Positions 48,289 through 57,386 of a stretch of 64,000 nucleotides of DNA are shown here, piece by piece. The DNA comes from Streptomyces rubrogriseus. Its GTDB lineage: Bacteria > Actinomycetota > Actinomycetes > Streptomycetales > Streptomycetaceae. The stretch covers positions 5,456,001-5,520,000 of the forward strand of contig NZ_CP116256.1 of NCBI RefSeq assembly GCF_027947575.1. Reading direction: 5' to 3'. A model generated the notes under the pieces. That model was not told the DNA's origin, made no database searches, and worked only from the letters and a program-made list of their open reading frames with translations. The position numbers and the translations under genes were made by a program. Every line of letters begins with the position of its first letter. Positions within the stretch are counted from its first letter, which is position 1.

Positions 48289-48954
48289 TCAGGACGAGAC
48301 GTGTGCCATCGCGGCGTCCAGGTGCGGCAGGTGGTGGTCGAGCCGCTCCCGCTTGGTGCGCAGGTAGGTGATGTTCGACTCGCACGGCGGTATCAGCAGC
48401 GGCACCTGCTCGGCGACCTGGATGCCGTGCCGCACCAACGCCTCGCGCTTGCGCGGGTTGTTGGACATCAGCCGCACCGAACGCACCCCGAGGTCGTCGA
48501 GGATCCGCGCGGCGACGCCGTAGTCCCGGGCGTCCACCGGCAGGCCGAGGGCGAGGTTCGCCTCCACCGTGTCCAGGCCCTCGGCCTGCAACGCCATCGC
48601 GCGCAGTTTGGCGAGCAGGCCGATGCCGCGCCCCTCGTGCCCGCGCAGGTAGACCACGACGCCACTGCCCGCGTCGGCCACCTGCCGGAGCGCGGTGGCG
48701 AGTTGGGCGCCGCACTCGCAGTGCTGGGAGCCGAAGGCGTCGCCGGTCAGGCACTCCGAGTGGAGCCGGGTGAGCACGTCTTCGGCGCCGAGGTCGCCGT
48801 ACACGAGGGCCACTTGCTCGTCGCCGCGTTCGTGGTCGAAATAGCCGAACGCCCTGAATTTCCCGTACACGGTGGGAAGCGGCGTCATCACGATCCGCTC
48901 CACGTCCGTGCGCTGTGCCGTCTTCTTGCCGAGTACACCGATTTTTTCTGTCAT
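48289..48954 (-). CDS. GTP cyclohydrolase II homologue, FAPy-forming variant (Met120)
   Basis: 221 residues. Zinc ligands C68, C79 and C81 ([16 protein letters not shown]), and [10 protein letters not shown]. The segment that reads RAYALQ in ordinary RibA reads RAMALQ here, placing Met at residue 120. In S. coelicolor SCO6655 the same Met120 changes the product: the enzyme opens GTP to the formylamino-pyrimidine nucleotide (FAPy) and does not remove the formyl group. I therefore infer FAPy synthesis and not riboflavin supply. ATG 48954 starts 53 bp from a divergent creatininase-family gene, which may carry out the missing deformylation. Counting to Met120 supports this start over the longer frame. 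Confidence 0.93.
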
Positions 48955-49007
48955 GATTCTCGCGTTCCTCAACAGTTTGCTCAACCGAGATGAAAGGCCG
49001 TGCCGGA

Positions 49008-49790
49008 ATGGATGTTTCACTGGTGCCGGCGGACACGAGCGACGATGTGCGCGAGCGTGGCTCCGGAGTCGCGGTGCTGCCGGTCGGGAGTTTCGAGCAG
49101 CACGGCCCGCACCTGCCGCTGGCGACCGACACCCTCGTCGCCTGCGCCGTCGCCCGGGCGGTGGCCGACGCGTATCCGGTGCACCTGCTGCCGCCGGTGA
49201 CGATCGGCTGCTCGCACGAGCACGCGGACTGGCCGGGGACCGTCAGCATCTCCGCCGTGACCCTGCACGCGGTGGTGCGCGACATAGCGGACTCCCTGCG
49301 CCGCTCGGGCGTCGGGGCCCTGGTCGTGGTCAACGGGCACGGCGGCAACTACGTGCTGGGCAACGTCGTTCAGGAGTCCTCGGCACGCGGCGAGCGGATG
49401 GCGCTGTTCCCGGCCGCGGAGGACTGGGAGACGGCGCGCCGGCGGGCGGGGGTGGTCACCTCGCTGCTCACCGACATGCACGCGGGGGAAATCGAGACCT
49501 CCGTTCTTCTGCACAAGCATCCCGAATTGGTCAGGCCCGGTTACGAGGCCGCCGATTTCGTCGCGGACGACCGGCGTCATCTGCTCTCCCTCGGTATGTC
49601 CGCCTACACCGATTCCGGTGTCATCGGGCGTCCTTCACTGGGTTCGGCGGAAAAGGGGAAGGAACTACTGGAAAGCCTGGCGGATTCCTTCGGGGAATAT
49701 TTCGCACTGCTGACGGCCGAGACGGCGGGGACGCCGTCCACGTACGACGACTCCGACGGCTCCGAGGGCTCCGACGGCGAGCGCGTGTAG
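49008..49790 (+). CDS. Creatininase-family amidohydrolase (candidate FAPy deformylase)
   Basis: 260 residues. Metal-binding pattern [15 protein letters not shown] (E30, H32, D41), VNGHGGN and MHAGEIETS, all creatininase hallmarks. In archaea the creatininase-family enzyme ArfB removes the formyl group from FAPy in riboflavin and F420 synthesis. Facing a FAPy-forming cyclohydrolase with only 53 bp between starts, it is a good candidate for the same step. ATG 49008 has AAAGG 9 nt upstream; ATG 48990 is an alternative. Its last 187 bp overlap the 3' end of the opposite-strand membrane protein gene. The C-terminal Asp/Ser-rich tail is unusual for the family. Confidence 0.88.
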
Positions 49791-50797
49791 CGCGCGGCGT
49801 ACCGACGTCCGACGAGGACGGCGACGCCGGGCAGGCTCGCCACGAGGCTGAGCACGCCGTACACCACCGCCACGCCCAGCCCGGTGCCCGCGCCGAGCCC
49901 CGCCGCGCCGAACGCCCACGCGGTGACGCCCTCCCGCGGGCCCCAGCCGCCGACGTTCAGCGGCAGCCCCATGGCGAGCAGCGCCAGCACGGCCAGCGGT
50001 GTGAGCGCGGCGACGGAGGCCGCGCTGCCGGCGACCCGGGCGGCGAGCACGAACATCGTGAGGTGTCCGGCGAGCACGACGGCGGAGGAGAGGGCGATGC
50101 CCGGCAGGTTCCGCCGGGACAGCAGCCCGTGCCGTGCCTCACCGAGCGCCGTCCGCACGGCCCGGCCCCGGCGCGCGGGGGCCCGGTTCATGCGCAGGGC
50201 GAGGACGACGGCGAGCGCGCCGGCCAGGGCGAGGGCCACGAGGGGTGCGAGGTGGCGTGCCTCGGCGCGCACCGGGGACGGCATCGTGAGCAGTACGCCG
50301 GCCCCGACACCCATCAACGCGAGCTGCCCCGCGACCCGTTCGAGGACGACGGCCCGCACGCCCCGCCCCAGGTCACCGGCGCTCCGCCCGTGCCGCACCG
50401 CCCGGTGCACGTCGCCGAGGACGCCGCCGGGCAGGGCCGCGTTGAGGAACAGGGCGCGGTAGTAGTCGGCGACGGCCGCCGCGAGCGGCAGCCGGATGCG
50501 CAGCCCGCGGGCGACCAGGGTCCAACGCCAGGCACTGAACACCGTGGTGACCAGTCCGATCCCGAGGGCCGCCAGCACGGTGGGCCCGTCGATCCGGCGC
50601 AGCCCGTCCAGGAAGGCGCCGGTCCCCAGCCGCCACACGAGCACGGCGAGGACGGCGGTGCCGGCGAGCGTGCCGAGGTGGGCGCGCAGGGCGCGGCGGC
50701 GGGGAGCCGCGACGCCGGTCGGGGCGTGCGGGCGTACCGGCGTCGGCAGTACCGCCGTCGGTGCGGTCGACACCGTCGGCAGAGTCGGTGCGCTCAC
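49604..50797 (-). CDS. Flippase-like integral membrane protein (UPF0104/LPG synthase TM family)
   Basis: 397 residues with about eight hydrophobic segments. Family marks: NAALPGGVLGDVHRAV and MGLPLNVGGWGPREGVTAWAF. Members flip or transfer lipid-linked groups. GTG 50797 overlaps the methyltransferase stop (GTGA). The C-terminal ~60 residues (from [15 protein letters not shown]) are Ser/Pro-rich and are encoded antisense to the creatininase gene; the two genes overlap by 187 bp. Probably handles a membrane-bound form of the product of this locus. Confidence 0.85.
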   Translation of the reverse strand: MSAPTLPTVSTAPTAVLPTPVRPHAPTGVAAPRRRALRAHLGTLAGTAVLAVLVWRLGTGAFLDGLRRIDGPTVLAALGIGLVTTVFSAWRWTLVARGLRIRLPLAAAVADYYRALFLNAALPGGVLGDVHRAVRHGRSAGDLGRGVRAVVLERVAGQLALMGVGAGVLLTMPSPVRAEARHLAPLVALALAGALAVVLALRMNRAPARRGRAVRTALGEARHGLLSRRNLPGIALSSAVVLAGHLTMFVLAARVAGSAASVAALTPLAVLALLAMGLPLNVGGWGPREGVTAWAFGAAGLGAGTGLGVAVVYGVLSLVASLPGVAVLVGRRYAARYTRSPSEPSEPSESSYVDGVPAVSAVSSAKYSPKESARLSSSSFPFSAEPSEGRPMTPESV

Positions 50798-52212
50798 GGG
50801 GCCCCGCCCGTCGGCCGGCACAGCGCCAGCAGGTCGGTGTGGTGGACGACGACACGCAACTCCCCGGCCGCGCAGGCCGCGAGGCGCTCCTCCAGGTACC
50901 GGTCCGCCCGCGCCCGCAGTTCCGGACGCTGTTCGACGGCCGCACCGACCCAGCCCCGCAGCCACTGGGCGGTGAGTCCGGCCTCGTCGGGGCCGAGCCG
51001 CCAGGGGCTGGGGTGCGTCCGTACGGTGGCGCCGTGCCCGGCGAAGGCCTCGGCGGCGGCGGTGACCGCGTCCGGACCGAGCATGCCGGTGCGCCGCTGG
51101 TGGTCGTTGAACGCCTCGGTGATCTCGGCGTCCAGGGGGTGGGCCGGGGTGAGGTCGACGCGTCCGGCGACGGAGAGGGTCAGCAGCGCCGGGCAGCCGG
51201 CCGCGGTGCAGGCGGCGGCGAGCTTGCCGACCTCCTCGGTGGTGAGGACGTCGAGCAGTGCGGACGCCGTCACCAGCGCGGCGCCGTTCAGGGCGTCCGG
51301 GGTGAGGCGGGCGAGGTCCCCGCGCCGCGTCTCGACGGTGACGCGGCTGCCGTCGGCGGCGGTGCGCGGGGCGGCCACGGCGGCGAAGTGCAGGAGGTAG
51401 GGGTCGCGGTCGTGCAGCACCCAGTGCTGGGCACCGTCGAGCAGCGGGGCCAGCCAGCGCCCCATCGACCCGGTGCCGCAGCCCAGGTCGTGCACCACCA
51501 GCCCGTCCGCCCGCCCCGGCAGGTTGGCGAGCCTGATCCGCAGCGGGTCGAGCAGGTCGTGCGCCCGCGCGGCGGCATCGGCGGGCTCCCGCAGCCGCAG
51601 CCATTCGGGCGCGTAGCGCGGGGGCTTTGCAGGGTGCTCGCGCACCGGCGCTCCGCGCAGACGGACGGTGGCACGCTCGCCGGAGGACTGCTCGAGGCCG
51701 TCGGCGACCGGCCCGTCGGAGGACCCCCCGGCCCCGAACCGCCCCTGCCCGTCGGTGACCGGCCCGTCGGAGGACCCCCCGGCGGCAGGCCGCCCCGGCT
51801 CGTCGTCGACCAGCCCGGCGGAGGACCCTGCGGCGCCGGACAGCCCCTGCCCGTGGGCGACCGGCCGTGCGAAGGGCCGCTCGGCGCGGTGCTCCGTGGG
51901 CTCGGCGGCGGCGTCGTCCGGCCGCCGCGTCGCGGGGCGGGCGGGGCCGTCTTCGGGCCGGTCGACGGACGGGACCGTCCAGTCCTCGCCCGGGCTGCCC
52001 CCGAGGCCGGCGGCAGGCCGCTCCACGGGGCGTCCGGCGCCCGGGCGGACCGGGCCCGCGACGTGGACGACGGCGTTCGGGGAACCGGTGGCGTTGGCGT
52101 CCGGCGGGCCGAGCCCGACCGGGCCAGTGCCCCCGGCCGCTGCCGGGACGGTGTCTACGGCCGCTGCCGGGACGGCGCTCTCGGCCGGTGCGGCGGGCTT
52201 GCCCGTGCTCAT
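50794..52212 (-). CDS. SAM-dependent methyltransferase with repetitive N-terminal extension
   Basis: 472 residues. Residues ~1-190 are a Gly/Pro/Asp-rich, low-complexity extension containing a 17-residue repeat. The methyltransferase domain starts near residue 215 with the SAM loop VVHDLGCGTGSMGRWLAPLL and continues to the C-terminus. ATG 52212 overlaps the glycosyltransferase stop (ATGA) and has GGAGG 5 nt upstream, so the extension is real coding sequence. The acceptor is unknown; the locus suggests a pyrimidine, pterin or sugar moiety. Confidence 0.85.
   Translation of the reverse strand: MSTGKPAAPAESAVPAAAVDTVPAAAGGTGPVGLGPPDANATGSPNAVVHVAGPVRPGAGRPVERPAAGLGGSPGEDWTVPSVDRPEDGPARPATRRPDDAAAEPTEHRAERPFARPVAHGQGLSGAAGSSAGLVDDEPGRPAAGGSSDGPVTDGQGRFGAGGSSDGPVADGLEQSSGERATVRLRGAPVREHPAKPPRYAPEWLRLREPADAAARAHDLLDPLRIRLANLPGRADGLVVHDLGCGTGSMGRWLAPLLDGAQHWVLHDRDPYLLHFAAVAAPRTAADGSRVTVETRRGDLARLTPDALNGAALVTASALLDVLTTEEVGKLAAACTAAGCPALLTLSVAGRVDLTPAHPLDAEITEAFNDHQRRTGMLGPDAVTAAAEAFAGHGATVRTHPSPWRLGPDEAGLTAQWLRGWVGAAVEQRPELRARADRYLEERLAACAAGELRVVVHHTDLLALCRPTGGAP
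51700..51875 (-). repeat. 51-bp tandem repeat inside the methyltransferase gene
   Basis: Units begin at 51700, 51751, 51802 and 51853 (partial). The first two share 32 of the first 33 bases; later ones are degenerate. Each encodes a 17-residue unit of the type V-T-D-G-Q-G-R-F-G-A-G-G-S-S-D-G-P. Confidence 0.85.
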
Positions 52213-53306
52213 GCGGCCCTCCTCGGTTCGCCCGGCAGCCGGTGCAGTACGCCGGCCAGGCTCTGGGCCGTGCTCGCCCAGCCGTTCAGGGCGGCGCGGC
52301 GACCACGGGCGGCGGCCTTGAGCCGCCGTCGTACGTCCGGCTCGCCGAACCAGCCACGCAGCTCCGCGGCGAGGGCGACGGGGTCCTCCGGCGGGACGAG
52401 GATGCCGGGCACGCCCCCGTCGGGCGCGCGTCCGACCGCCTCCGGCAGGCCGCCGACATCCGTGGCCAGCACCGGGATGCCGCGCGCGAGGGCCTCGGTC
52501 ACCGCCATGCCGTACGTCTCGGCGTACGAGGTGAGGACCATCAGGTCGGCGGCGGCGTAGGTGGCGTCCAGGTCGGCGCCGGCCCGCGGCCCGGCGAGCA
52601 CCAGCCGCTCCTGGAGACCGTGCCGCGCGATCAGCGACCGCAGCCGGTCGGCGTACTCCGGGTCCTGTGCGAGTCCGCCGACGCACACGCAACTCCACGG
52701 CAGGTCGGCCACGGCCGCCAGCGCCTCCACCAGCCGGTGCTGGCCCTTGCGCGGGGTGACCGCGGCGACGCAGACCAGCCGCGAGACGCCGTCGGTGCCG
52801 GGCGCGAGGGGTGCGATGTCGGCGCCGGGGGCGGCGACGTGGACCCGGCCCGGGTCGAGGCCGTGGTGGGAGACGAGGCGGCGCACCGCCCAGTCGCTGG
52901 TGGCGACGACGGCCGGGACGGCACGCAGCACCGAGCGCTCGCGGGCGTCCAGGGCGGCCGCCACGGCGGGGTCGAGGCCGGTCTCGTCGCCGAGCGGGAG
53001 GTGGACGAGGACGGCCATGCGCAGCCGTTCGGCCTCCGGGACGACGACCTCCGGCACTCCGCAGGCCACCAGACCGTCGAGGAGGACGACCGCGCCGTCC
53101 GGCAACCGTCGCAGAACGCGGGCGAGTTCCGCGCGGGCCGCGTCGTCCGGCCGGGGCCAGTCGCCCGGCACGGGCAGCCCCCGCACCCGCCAGCCGAAGC
53201 CGGGCAGGTCGAGCCGTACCCGCCGGTCGTAGGCGTTGCCGCCACTGGGCGCGGCCGGGTCGTCGACGCCACCCGGCATGACGAAGTGCACGGATCGCAG
53301 GGACAT
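52209..53306 (-). CDS. GT4-family glycosyltransferase
   Basis: 365 residues. GT-B fold: VHFVMPGGVDDPAAPSGGNAYDRR at the acceptor side, then LVCVAAVTPRKGQHRLVEAL and the donor motif TSYAETYGMAVTEALARGIPVLATDVGGLPE (E-x7-E). It should transfer a sugar from a nucleotide donor. ATG 53306 has a GGGGGG stretch upstream. An in-frame GTG at 53435 overlaps the PTPS-like stop (GTGA), as in the other junctions of this operon, and would add 43 Ala/Pro-rich residues; I cannot exclude it. Confidence 0.88.
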   Translation of the reverse strand: MSLRSVHFVMPGGVDDPAAPSGGNAYDRRVRLDLPGFGWRVRGLPVPGDWPRPDDAARAELARVLRRLPDGAVVLLDGLVACGVPEVVVPEAERLRMAVLVHLPLGDETGLDPAVAAALDARERSVLRAVPAVVATSDWAVRRLVSHHGLDPGRVHVAAPGADIAPLAPGTDGVSRLVCVAAVTPRKGQHRLVEALAAVADLPWSCVCVGGLAQDPEYADRLRSLIARHGLQERLVLAGPRAGADLDATYAAADLMVLTSYAETYGMAVTEALARGIPVLATDVGGLPEAVGRAPDGGVPGILVPPEDPVALAAELRGWFGEPDVRRRLKAAARGRRAALNGWASTAQSLAGVLHRLPGEPRRAA

Positions 53307-53431
53307 GGGGACGATCCCCCCGTTCCTCGGGCCCGGGATCCGGACCGGGGCCGCGGCCTGGGCCTGGGCCGTCCCCGGCAGCTGGGCGGGGACGTGGGCG
53401 AGCCGGGTCCGCCCCGCGGCGGTCGTGCCGG

Positions 53432-53944
<513 letters not shown>

Positions 53945-54955
53945 TCAGGCGCCGCTGCGGGCGTCCGTGCCGGTGTCCTCGTCGTCGTAGCGGATCCGGT
54001 GGCACAGTGCGGGGATCTCTCCGGATGCCAACCGCGGCATCAGCTCCGGCAGTTCGGCGAAGGCGGACTCACCGGTGACGAGCGCGTCGAGCGCCGGGTC
54101 GGCGAGCAGTTCGAGGGCGAGGGCGAGCCGGTCGGCGTAGGTGCGGGTGGCGGCACGGGCCGGGGAGACGGTGCCGACCTGGCTGCCCCGCAGGGTCAGG
54201 CGCCGGGAGTGGAAGGCCTCGCCCAGCGGCAGGGCGACGCGCCGGTCGCCGTACCAGCTCAGCTCGACGACGGTGCCCTCGGGCCGCAGCAGTTCCAGCG
54301 ACCGGGCGAGTCCCGCCTCCGTCGCGCTGGCGTGCACGACGAGATCGCGGTCGCCGACGGCCTCGCCCGGGGAGGCGAAACCGGCGCCGAGCGCCTCGGC
54401 GACCTCCGCGCGGGCCGGATCGGTGTCGACCAACTCGACGCGGACGCCCGGGAATCGGGCGAGCAGCGCGACGACCGAGCAGCCGACCATGCCTCCGCCG
54501 ACCACGCTGACCCGGTCGCCGACCAGCGGCGCCGCGTCCCACAGGGCGTTGACGGCGGTCTCGACGGTGCCGGCGAGTACGGCCCGCCCGGCGGGCACCG
54601 AGGGCGGTACCGGCGTCACGGCCGCGGCGGGGACGACGTACCGGGTCTGGTGCGGGTGGAGACAGAACACGGTGCGCCCGACGAGACGCTCCGGCCCCTC
54701 CTCCACCACACCCACGTTGAGGTAGCCGTACTTCACCGGCCCGGGGAAATCGCCCTCCTGGAACGGCGCGCGCATCGCCGTGTACTGGTTCTCCGGCACC
54801 CGGCCGCCGAAGACGAGGGTCTCGGTGCCACGGCTGACCCCGCTGAAGAGGGCGCGCACGAGCACCTCGTCCGCGCCCGGTACCGGCAGCTCCACCTCGC
54901 GGATCGCGCCCCGCCCCGGCGCTTCGAGCCAGAACGCACGTGCCATGCGTGCCAT
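53945..54955 (-). CDS. Zinc-type MDR dehydrogenase
   Basis: 336 residues of the medium-chain dehydrogenase family. GroES-like N-terminus with [14 protein letters not shown] and a cofactor loop [17 protein letters not shown]. The structural zinc Cys cluster is absent and the catalytic Cys/His are not obvious, so it may use an altered metal site. Members with SRGTE occur in secondary metabolism (BchC-like). ATG 54955 has AGGAGG 7 nt upstream. It precedes the PTPS-like gene on the same strand by 114 bp and probably oxidises or reduces an intermediate of this locus. Confidence 0.85.
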
Positions 54956-55064
54956 CGGAAGTCCTCCTGAACGATCGGGAAGCCACTCACGTACCGAGGG
55001 ATGCACAAGCCGCGCACAAGGTAGCGGCGTTGATCGACTCTGTCACACGGCCGGAGGATGTTCG

Positions 55065-55850
55065 GTGGCCCTGATCAACCTGAACCACACGGACGACGCG
55101 TACGGCGCCTGTCCCGCGAGGTCCGTTCAGCAGGAGACGGCGGTCGGCGCGGGCGCGCAGATCCTGCTCCTGGCGCTGCTCGGCACCGCGATCGGCATGG
55201 GCACGGCGGGCTGGCTGACCGGCCTGGCGTTCGCGTTCGCGAGCTGGGCGGTGCTCTCCCGGGCCCTGCACCGCTCCCGGCTGCCGTCGTTCGGCCCGGC
55301 CAACCGGGTCACCCTCGGCCGGGCCACCCTGGTCGGCGGGGTCACCGCCCTGGTCGCGGACTCCTACCGCAGCGCGCCGCCCGTCTCCCTCCTGGTCGGC
55401 CTGACGGCCGTGGCCCTGATCCTGGACGGCGTGGACGGCAAGGTCGCCCGCCGCACCGGCACGTCGACACCGCTGGGCGCGCGCTTCGACATGGAGGTCG
55501 ACGCGTTCCTCATCCTGGTGCTCAGCGTGTACGTCGCGCTGGATCTGGGCCCGTGGGTGCTGCTGATCGGCGGCATGCGGTACGTGTTCGTGGCCGCGGC
55601 GCGGGTGTGGCCGTGGCTGACGGCCCCGCTGCCGCCGAGCACGGCCCGCAAGACGGTGGCCGCGCTCCAGGGCGTCCTGCTGCTCCTGGCGGGCGCGGAG
55701 CTACTGCCGCACCTGGGGAACGCCGGGGTGGTGGCGGTGGCGCTGGGCCTGCTGGTGTGGTCGTTCGGCCGGGACGTGCGGTGGCTGTGGCGGCGGTCCC
55801 GGGTTCCCGCGACGCCTGCCACGGCAGTGCGGGAACTCGTCGCGCAGTGA
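55065..55850 (+). CDS. CDP-alcohol phosphatidyltransferase-family membrane enzyme
   Basis: 261 residues with about six hydrophobic segments. The CDP-OH-P motif is intact: LDGVDGKVARRTG followed by GARFDMEVD (D-G-x2-D-G-x2-A-R-x8-G-x3-D-x3-D). It transfers a phosphoalcohol from a CDP-linked donor. GTG 55065 has GGAGG 7 nt upstream; it is divergent from the MDR dehydrogenase with 109 bp between starts. It may attach a phospholipid or polyol to the product of this locus, or may make an ordinary phospholipid; context favours the former. Confidence 0.88.
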   Translation: MALINLNHTDDAYGACPARSVQQETAVGAGAQILLLALLGTAIGMGTAGWLTGLAFAFASWAVLSRALHRSRLPSFGPANRVTLGRATLVGGVTALVADSYRSAPPVSLLVGLTAVALILDGVDGKVARRTGTSTPLGARFDMEVDAFLILVLSVYVALDLGPWVLLIGGMRYVFVAAARVWPWLTAPLPPSTARKTVAALQGVLLLLAGAELLPHLGNAGVVAVALGLLVWSFGRDVRWLWRRSRVPATPATAVRELVAQ

Positions 55851-55857
55851 GTCCCTC

Positions 55858-56688
55858 CTAGGCCGCCGCGCCCACCGGCCCCGCGGAGCGCGCCGATCCC
55901 GAGGACCGCGCCGAGATCCGCCCGCTGATCAGGACGGACCGGCGGCGGGTGAAGAGACGGGGCAACGAGACCATGAGGGCGTTCAGACGCCCCGACTGCA
56001 CGCTCGGCCGCCGTCCGCGGTCCAGAGCGCGCATCGCGGTCGCGACCACCTGCTCGGGGGTCTGGTAGCTGCCTTGGTAGGCACCGCCCTCCAGACCGTC
56101 GAAGAACTCGGTGCGGGTGAGCCCCGGGGCCAGCGAGAGAACCCGCAGCCCGGTGCCGCGGGACTCGTACCACAGAGCCTCGGTGAAGCTGAGCACGAAG
56201 GCCTTGCAGGCGGCGTAGACCGCCATCCCGGGGCTGGGCGCGTAGGCCGCCGCGCTCGCGACGTTGACGAGCACGCCACGGCCGGAGTCGCGGAGCGGCT
56301 CGATGAACGCCCGGGTGAGGTCGACGAGGTTGGCCACGTCCACGTTGATCTCGTCGGTGAGTCGGTCGGGGTCCTCCTGATGGAAGGTGCCGCTGGTGCC
56401 GAATCCGGCGTTGTTCACCAGGCCGTCGACGCGGATGCCCCGCCCCGCCAGGTCAGCGGCGAGCCGACGCCCCGCCCCCGGCTCGCTCAGGTCCAGCCGC
56501 ACCGCCGTGGCGCGTACGCCGTGCCGCGCCCGCAGTTCGGAGGCGAGGTCCTCCAGGCGGTCGAGCCGCCGTGCGACGAGGACGAGGTCGGAGCCGCGGC
56601 GGGCCAGTTCGCGGGCGAACTCGGCGCCGATTCCGGAGCTGGCGCCGGTGACGACCGTGGTCTGACCGGAGAAGTCGATTGCAGTCAT
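55858..56688 (-). CDS. Short-chain dehydrogenase/reductase
   Basis: 276 residues. Classical SDR: cofactor loop TGASSGIGAEFA, LVNNAGFGTSG, catalytic Ser in NVASAAAYAPS and the Y-x3-K in VYAACKAF. The Arg near the cofactor loop suggests NADP. Start ATG 56688. The divergent TetR gene and operator between them indicate local repression. It converges on the CDP-alcohol transferase gene, 7 bp apart. Substrate unknown. Confidence 0.9.
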   Translation of the reverse strand: MTAIDFSGQTTVVTGASSGIGAEFARELARRGSDLVLVARRLDRLEDLASELRARHGVRATAVRLDLSEPGAGRRLAADLAGRGIRVDGLVNNAGFGTSGTFHQEDPDRLTDEINVDVANLVDLTRAFIEPLRDSGRGVLVNVASAAAYAPSPGMAVYAACKAFVLSFTEALWYESRGTGLRVLSLAPGLTRTEFFDGLEGGAYQGSYQTPEQVVATAMRALDRGRRPSVQSGRLNALMVSLPRLFTRRRSVLISGRISARSSGSARSAGPVGAAA

Positions 56689-56710
56689 GTCATGCACTGT
56701 AGGCAGCTCT

Positions 56711-56725
56711 TTGCACTCAGTGCAA
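56711..56725. promoter_or_regulatory. TetR operator between SDR and TetR genes
   Basis: Perfect palindrome TTGCACT-C-AGTGCAA. A half-site copy ACTGAGTGCA (56790-56799) overlaps the TetR start codon, and TGCAAAG occurs at 56777-56783. The arrangement suggests autoregulation and SDR repression. Confidence 0.8.
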
Positions 56726-56784
56726 GTAGTGCGCTTGATGTACGATCATGCGCACAGTGAAACCCTACGCGCTGCGTGCAAAGC

Positions 56785-56801
56785 TATAGACTGAGTGCAT
56801 G
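56785..56801 (+). promoter_or_regulatory. TetR -10 element and probable leaderless start
   Basis: TATAGA at 56785-56790 lies 8 nt before the TetR ATG (56799), so transcription should begin at or next to the start codon. No Shine-Dalgarno is present. No good -35 was found. Confidence 0.5.
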
Positions 56802-57386
56802 GCCGACACCCCCACGCTTCGAGAGCGCGCGCGCCGCGCCGCGCGCGCGGAGATCACCGCCACCGCCGTGCAGCTCTTCGCGGAGCAGGGCTTCGAGGCG
56901 ACGACGATCGACCAGATCACCAGTGCCGTGGGCATCTCGCGCCGCTCCTTCTTCCACTACTTCGGCAGCAAGGAGGACCTCGTCCTGGGCGACACCCAGG
57001 CGCTCGGCGAGTCGGTACGGGCCGCGCTGGAGGCCCGCCCGGACGACGAATCGGCCTGGACCGCCATCCGGGCGGCCCTCCTGACCATCCGTCCGGCGGA
57101 CAAGACCCCGGAGGAGCAGCTCACCCTCGCCCGCATCCACCACGAGGCGCCCTCCGTGCGCGCCCGGCACCTGGAGAAGCACCTGCGCTGGCAGGAACTG
57201 CTCGCCCCGGACATCCAGCGCCGCCTGGGCCTGCCCCCGACGGCGGCCCCGGACCCCAGGGCACTTGCCTTCGTCGCCGCCGCTCTGGCCTGCGTCGACG
57301 CGGCCGTCGACGCGTGGTACCGCTCCGGCGGCGCGGAGGACCCCGAGCACATCTTCGACGAGGCGGTGGCGACGCTGCGCCGCTAG
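56799..57386 (+). CDS. TetR-family repressor
   Basis: 195 residues. N-terminal HTH: TAVQLFAEQGFEATTIDQITSAVGISRRSFFHYFGSKEDLVLG. The C-terminal domain is helical and of the size usual for ligand-binding TetR proteins. Divergent from the SDR gene with a shared palindrome. ATG 56799 without ribosome site, consistent with a leaderless message. Converges with the MFS gene, overlapping by 4 bp. Confidence 0.92.
   Translation: MADTPTLRERARRAARAEITATAVQLFAEQGFEATTIDQITSAVGISRRSFFHYFGSKEDLVLGDTQALGESVRAALEARPDDESAWTAIRAALLTIRPADKTPEEQLTLARIHHEAPSVRARHLEKHLRWQELLAPDIQRRLGLPPTAAPDPRALAFVAAALACVDAAVDAWYRSGGAEDPEHIFDEAVATLRR

Follow-up and report, generated by a model that had tools for sequence, protein, structure and literature searches.

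Eight genes of Streptomyces rubrogriseus represent the Streptomyces form of a widespread PTPS-IV gene cluster predicted to act on a GTP-derived pyrimidine

The window analyzed here is a 64,000-nucleotide stretch of the Streptomyces rubrogriseus genome (contig NZ_CP116256.1, positions 5,456,001 to 5,520,000 of the forward strand), and positions are counted from its first nucleotide. Between positions 48289 and 55850 it holds eight genes, among them genes for a GTP cyclohydrolase II (GCH2) and a homolog of 6-pyruvoyltetrahydropterin synthase (PTPS), which are the local Streptomyces form of a gene cluster common to distantly related bacteria. An initial annotation had proposed that the genes specify a GTP-derived, glycosylated, membrane-linked molecule, and open frames and family matches confirmed all eight of the families that it named:

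48289 to 48954, minus strand: GCH2 homolog, predicted to form the formamidopyrimidine FAPy (PF00925, E 3.7e-65; AMALQ, with Met at the switch position)
49008 to 49790, plus strand: creatininase-family amidohydrolase (CRE), predicted FAPy deformylase (PF02633, E 4e-67); an upstream ATG at 48990 is a possible alternative start
49604 to 50797, minus strand: LPG_synthase_TM flippase-like membrane protein (FLP; PF03706, E 8e-33)
50794 to 52212, minus strand: class I methyltransferase (MT) with a low-complexity N-terminal extension of about 190 residues (PF13649, 25.6 bits)
52209 to 53306, minus strand: GT4 glycosyltransferase (PF00534, E 7e-29); alternative GTG start near 53436
53432 to 53830, minus strand: predicted PTPS-IV T-fold protein (FGPAQ), ortholog of SCO6650 / PDB 3d7j (PF01242, E 3e-23)
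53945 to 54955, minus strand: zinc-less medium-chain dehydrogenase/reductase (MDR), BchC-like (S..S.GTE; ADH_zinc_N just under the cut-off)
55065 to 55850, plus strand: CDP-alcohol phosphatidyltransferase (CDP), divergent from MDR (PF01066, E 1e-13)

Third-position GC was 0.87-0.96 in all eight genes, each of which is an open frame. The PTPS, GT4, MT and FLP genes form a minus-strand run, and the two overlapping junctions reported in the initial annotation are real: a 4-base ATGA overlap joins GT4 and MT (52209-52212) and a 4-base GTGA overlap joins MT and FLP (50794-50797). The third junction suspected there is possible through a GTG start of GT4 that sits on the PTPS stop codon. GCH2 and CRE are divergent, as are MDR and CDP. 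CRE and FLP share 187 nt at their 3' ends (49604-49790), a feature absent from the initial annotation. The match to the window CRE crosses a stop near its end in several relatives, so the C-terminal tail of CRE is not conserved.

The cluster PTPS was present in 31 of the 81 Streptomyces genomes surveyed, a set that includes the window's own genome. Fifteen regions drawn from the 31 PTPS-positive genomes (the window, L031 and 13 chosen regions, L165-L177) were compared, and GCH2, CRE, FLP, MT, GT4, PTPS, MDR and CDP were all present, in identical order, in all 15. A creatininase scoring at least 339 bits was detected in 31 of 31 PTPS-positive and in 0 of 50 PTPS-negative Streptomyces (Fisher 4e-23, a value that ignores phylogeny). 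A more distant creatininase (260-314 bits) was detected in seven of the 50 PTPS-negative genomes, and percent identity parts the two groups less cleanly than bit score (64% vs. 62%). The 20 kb around the creatininase in these seven genomes (L158-L164; 54-64% by tblastn) contained no other cluster gene. A helix-turn-helix-like frame, judged by eye only, lies upstream of the lone creatininase in some of the seven. One Streptomyces genome carries a second PTPS copy, 78% identical (G420:C53:12295-12684).

Outside Streptomyces, 84 of 396 genomes of the phylum gave matches in a search with PTPS, many of them being QueD-type. MDR adjoins PTPS in 28 of the 30 best short loci from this search; of the two exceptions, L010 stops at a contig edge and L029 is of the QueD kind. 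A contig scan with ten Rubrobacter PTPS sequences gave 225 relatives, the best 80 of which were considered. On 23 distinct Rubrobacter contigs (L040/L065, L041/L051, L042/L060 and L048/L059 are duplicates, each counted once), RibD_C and MDR were found in 23, GT4, FolB and an adjoining PlsC-like acyltransferase in 22 each, MT in 18, an MFS transporter in 13 and GCH2 in one; the five contigs without MT all run out of contig. PHP-like and AlaX-like genes, named by eye, lie downstream of the cluster on 12 of these 23 contigs (e.g., L041:5246-6750). Thirty-four loci labeled Chloroflexota or otherwise, which include some metagenome bins with doubtful names and two loci from one bin, contained GT4 (31, some of them weak matches that may be other GT4 enzymes), MDR (29), RibD_C (27), FolB (17), GCH2 (17), MT (15), MFS (3) and the acyltransferase (3; L072, L074 and L079, all Chloroflexota). 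Among actinomycetes, L032, from another family, holds CDP, MDR, PTPS, GT4, MT, FLP, GCH2 and RibD_C. L034, at a contig end, holds GCH2, RibD_C, FLP, GT4 and PTPS, and L033 holds MDR, PTPS and GT4 only. With starts taken as approximate, genes were on the same strand and in order for RibD_C/MDR in 47 of 55 loci, for MDR/PTPS in 68 of 69 and for PTPS/GT4 in 66 of 71.

MDR, PTPS and GT4 make up the core that recurs across lineages; a stand-alone RibD_C usually accompanies it, and MT, FolB or GCH2 often do. The same order in 15 Streptomyces regions, together with the core in two phyla, rules out a chance grouping. Conserved co-occurrence, on which the initial annotation had staked its proposal, was thus found: every one of the 15 Streptomyces regions has the eight families, and the core occurs in Rubrobacter and Chloroflexota. 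The 15 of 15 co-occurrence supports the view that this is one coherent locus, and the GTP-derived and glycosylated parts of the proposal are supported as well.

The window GCH2 has Met where the aligned E. coli GCH2 (2bz0) has Tyr. SCO6655, the Streptomyces coelicolor ortholog, reportedly converts GTP to FAPy-5'-monophosphate, and Met in place of the switch Tyr is said to halt its reaction at FAPy; the window GCH2 is accordingly predicted to be a FAPy-forming enzyme of the SCO6655 type. The Met switch and the creatininase occurred together in 15 of 15 Streptomyces regions, and 19 distinct other cluster GCH2 had the Tyr switch and no creatininase within 9 kb (Fisher 5e-10 for the Met/creatininase link). 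The Tyr set comprises 19 contigs from 20 rows, since L041 and L051 are the same contig; L090 is truncated, and the QueD loci L043 and L046 were left out. Three GCH2 are encoded in the window's own genome, and the cluster copy is not its sole GCH2. The metal motifs of CRE were retained in 15 of 15 Streptomyces regions. The window creatininase scored 33.3 bits against the ArfB family NF033501, for which the cut-off is 180, and its nearest curated family was MftE (142 bits; cut-off 172). According to passages of PMC9478397, Sinorhizobium and Brucella have a formamidase of the creatininase family that acts on FAPy, and the creatininase-family enzymes BrbF and ArfB convert FAPy to APy (2,5-diamino-6-ribosylamino-4(3H)-pyrimidinone 5'-phosphate); those enzymes serve riboflavin or F420, however, and the window enzyme falls far under the ArfB cut-off. 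We infer that the window creatininase is a FAPy deformylase. Because Met occurs only with the creatininase and Tyr otherwise, both versions of the cluster should converge on the same pyrimidine, APy.

RibD_C usually belongs to the cluster elsewhere; the window's clade lacks it, and it hence lay outside the view of the initial annotation. It lies between CRE and FLP in five of the 15 Streptomyces regions, and cluster copies are 73-75% identical to each other; in ten genomes with a RibD_C-less cluster, the window's included, no RibD_C ortholog was detected elsewhere (best matches, 31-40% identity). Residues aligned with RibG Arg183, Arg206, Asp199 and Glu290 were kept in 60 of 60 aligned sequences, and an equivalent of RibG Lys151 was present in 0 of 61, a set that includes repeats of four contigs. 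The best solved matches were the archaeal/fungal-type 2,5-diamino-6-ribosylamino-pyrimidinone phosphate reductases 6p8c and ArfC (2azn), which the cluster enzyme also resembles in having no Lys151. Residues and structure matches fit APy as the probable substrate. Unlike those reductases, the cluster RibD_C has GT4 and PTPS-IV genes as neighbors, and other loci of the genome hold RibD-sized frames.

The window PTPS is about 99% identical to the SCO6650 protein 3d7j (phmmer E 3.5e-83). The initial annotation had called it zinc-less, and this was borne out: HGA stands in place of the HGH motif, and neither the catalytic Cys nor the Asp-His is present. HGH is kept in the cluster PTPS of Rubrobacter and Chloroflexota, and HGA is found in Streptomyces. 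The window has FGPAQ exactly, as do 22 of 79 cluster PTPS, and FGPA-x occurs in 77 of 79, one of the two exceptions being truncated. The canonical PTPS/QueD signature (CxxxHGH or CxxxxxHGH, with Asp-His) was not found in the cluster PTPS; 29 weaker matches listed in the contig scan do carry Cys-x3-HGH. By these motifs the window PTPS is assigned to the subfamily that a 2017 paper on AGeNNT named PTPS-IV (COG0720) for its FGPAQ group, listing PF00925 (GCH2) and PF01872 (RibD_C) as neighbors (PMC5445326). Both neighbors were found across the loci, and the window itself has GCH2 only. With that pair already listed and SCO6655 and SCO6650 (structure 3d7j) reportedly characterized before, "undescribed", as the initial annotation called the locus, was too strong a word. 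MDR, GT4, MT, FLP, CDP and the creatininase, on the other hand, are not mentioned in the published neighborhood section of that paper.

The window MDR scored 31.3 bits against ADH_zinc_N, for which the cut-off is 31.8. Ser occupies both places of S..S.GTE in 67 of 67 sequences, so the MDR is without the catalytic zinc Cys. Its model (pLDDT 88) has the fold of polyol and secondary-alcohol dehydrogenases and matched polyol, threonine and idonate dehydrogenases at a TM of about 0.75, which is unspecific.

The nearest solved structures to GT4 are of the MshA type (E ~1e-20). The window MT is under the PF13649 cut-off of 27 bits, and its L032 relative is above it at 32.1 bits. The N-terminal extension of the window MT (51640-52212) is rich in Pro, Gly, Ala and Asp and has short repeats; with approximate starts, the cluster MTs of several relatives measure about 280-300 residues. 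A single frame of 632-642 residues encodes both GT4 and MT in five Rubrobacter loci (L038, L039, L061, L063, and L064), a fusion suggesting that methylation comes after glycosylation. FLP was found in all 15 Streptomyces regions, L032 and L034, and CDP in the same 15 regions and L032, with the motif D-x2-D-G-x2-A-R-x8-G-x3-D-x3-D exact. The Rubrobacter and Chloroflexota acyltransferase has the NHx4D motif in 29 of 29 loci (repeats included) and often lies beside the MFS transporter. As a sign of a membrane link, replacement of FLP and CDP by this acyltransferase is suggestive only. Of the initial proposal, then, the membrane-linked part fared less well than the GTP-derived and glycosylated parts: FLP and CDP were found in the actinomycete versions alone, with the acyltransferase in their place in Rubrobacter and three Chloroflexota loci.

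That the locus encodes one pathway is well supported. We think it likely, by a modest margin and for the scheme as a whole rather than for each step, that its product is a coherent, APy-derived, glycosylated and methylated compound. Met-type GCH2 would open GTP to FAPy-5'-monophosphate, from which the creatininase would take formate to give APy; Tyr-type GCH2, where there is no creatininase, should yield APy in one step. In most lineages the archaeal/fungal-type RibD_C would then reduce APy to a ribityl compound, as its residues suggest. The zinc-less MDR and PTPS-IV would rework that substrate; our preferred guess, speculative and rather unlikely, is that MDR oxidizes the 2'-hydroxyl and that ring closure on PTPS-IV then gives a dihydropterin. 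GT4 would add a sugar, and MT would methylate, probably, the glycoside. Last, FLP and CDP in actinomycetes, or the acyltransferase and MFS in Rubrobacter and some Chloroflexota, may anchor or export the product; such a lipid link is possible, although we would not bet on it. A bolder version, to which we give a small chance, is that GCH2 (with the deformylase where needed), RibD_C, MDR and PTPS-IV do stepwise what GTP cyclohydrolase I (GCH1) does at once: C1' would be reduced, C2' oxidized and the ring closed to a dihydropterin phosphate, which would be glycosylated, methylated and tied to the membrane.

Several observations weigh against this scheme. The window's clade is without a cluster RibD_C, yet retains MDR and PTPS, which counts against the idea that MDR needs RibD_C as its partner and against reduction followed by oxidation. 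The Met/creatininase link is confined to one clade and therefore probably reflects a single evolutionary event. A mirror-tree comparison of pairwise distances gave correlations among MDR, PTPS, GT4 and RibD_C (r 0.74-0.96 overall and 0.68-0.86 within groups), but with no unrelated-gene control for comparison. In the checked Rubrobacter and Chloroflexota genomes the cluster copies are the only FolB (R. taiwanensis excepted) and mostly the only GCH2; they must also serve folate and riboflavin and are therefore weak evidence there. The MTs of Streptomyces could not be aligned with those of Rubrobacter and Chloroflexota (hhalign probability 0.14%), so the methyl group need not reach the same place, and FLP and CDP were not found outside the actinomycete versions among the loci examined.

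The product may instead be no pterin at all: it could be a glycosylated, methylated ribosyl- or ribityl-diaminopyrimidine that PTPS-IV merely binds or isomerizes. PTPS-IV is without the catalytic triad, the RibD_C residues indicate a phosphoribosyl pyrimidine substrate, and an obvious ring-closing enzyme is absent among the cluster genes. This alternative is nonetheless somewhat unlikely, since the pterin-anchoring Glu region is retained in PTPS-IV, FolB lies within the operon in many Chloroflexota loci, and free diaminopyrimidines, as a matter of general chemistry, readily close or oxidize. A cofactor for aromatic amino acid hydroxylases would accord with the pterin-type genes, but Biopterin_H (PF00351) was detected in five of 31 PTPS-positive and five of 50 PTPS-negative Streptomyces (Fisher p 0.49), and for Streptomyces this reading is disfavored to the point of being hardly credible.

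The cluster could also serve as a backup or regulated source of precursors for riboflavin or folate, with the glycan and lipid genes as unrelated neighbors. The GCH2 and FolB of Rubrobacter and Chloroflexota are mostly single-copy and must serve these vitamins, but GCH1 was detected in 18 of the 19 entries searched (18 distinct genomes, with R. taiwanensis entered twice; the miss is a Thermoflexus bin), and RibBA-sized GCH2 and RibD-sized frames, judged by length and position, lie elsewhere in Rubrobacter and Streptomyces. MDR, PTPS and GT4 occur together in nearly all loci, and the GT4-MT fusions likewise argue against unrelated neighbors, making vitamin supply improbable. A role of the cluster as replacement for GCH1 was set aside on the same GCH1 result. 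Synthesis of F420 has in its favor that APy is also an F420 precursor and that a passage of PMC5041015, citing unpublished work, states that PTPS-IV acts in archaeal F420 synthesis. The distribution of CofH does not bear this out: CofH was not found in six of six cluster-bearing Chloroflexota genomes, which include draft or metagenome assemblies, and was above the cut-off in eight of eight Streptomyces without PTPS. It was above the cut-off also in four of four PTPS-positive Streptomyces, five of five Rubrobacter and the genome of L032, and G008 gave a weak match only. The F420 reading is thus strongly disfavored and very improbable. As far as GCH1, RibD- and RibBA-sized frames, GCH2 and FolB copies and CofH can tell, the locus stands apart from the routes to riboflavin, folate and F420, as the initial annotation had held.

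The preferred reading, an APy-derived glycoside, can be set beside earlier work. The window holds orthologs of SCO6655 (with the Met switch) and SCO6650, which were reportedly characterized in 2006 and 2008, as single enzymes. By counting, the six window genes from PTPS to GCH2 fit SCO6650-6655, with MT as SCO6652. A table of PMC2853524 gives SCO6655 as GCH2, and SCO6652, the one cluster gene seen in passages of PMC3610822, was raised by 4.3 log2 units in aerial mycelium and by 4.1 in spore-stage mycelium; the cluster may therefore belong to late development. Cyanopterin and other bacterial pterin glycosides, as treated in parts of PMC3546692, likewise combine a GTP-derived heterocycle with a glycosyltransferase, and cyanopterin has a methylated sugar. 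Those systems use GCH1 and a known PTPS or sepiapterin reductase, in contrast to the GCH2 branch and PTPS-IV here. No paper on the whole cluster, its pathway or its product was found among the open-access papers searched, a set that leaves out most subscription journals. A divergent pair of genes, for a short-chain dehydrogenase/reductase (minus strand) and a TetR-like regulator (plus strand), adjoins the cluster at 55858-57386; they are candidate members of it.

These results place PTPS-IV in a tight gene context, open to testing, in two phyla and, for these bacteria, argue against the F420 role stated for it. A deformylase partner would explain why Streptomyces retain a GCH2 that stops at FAPy. 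If the stepwise conversion is true, it would represent an old, cross-phylum branch of GTP metabolism, and the lipid-linked pterin glycosides that it yields in Streptomyces, Rubrobacter and green non-sulfur bacteria would be a previously unknown class. The cluster points to a GTP-derived glycoside, for which S. coelicolor, a laboratory species amenable to genetics, offers a place to search.

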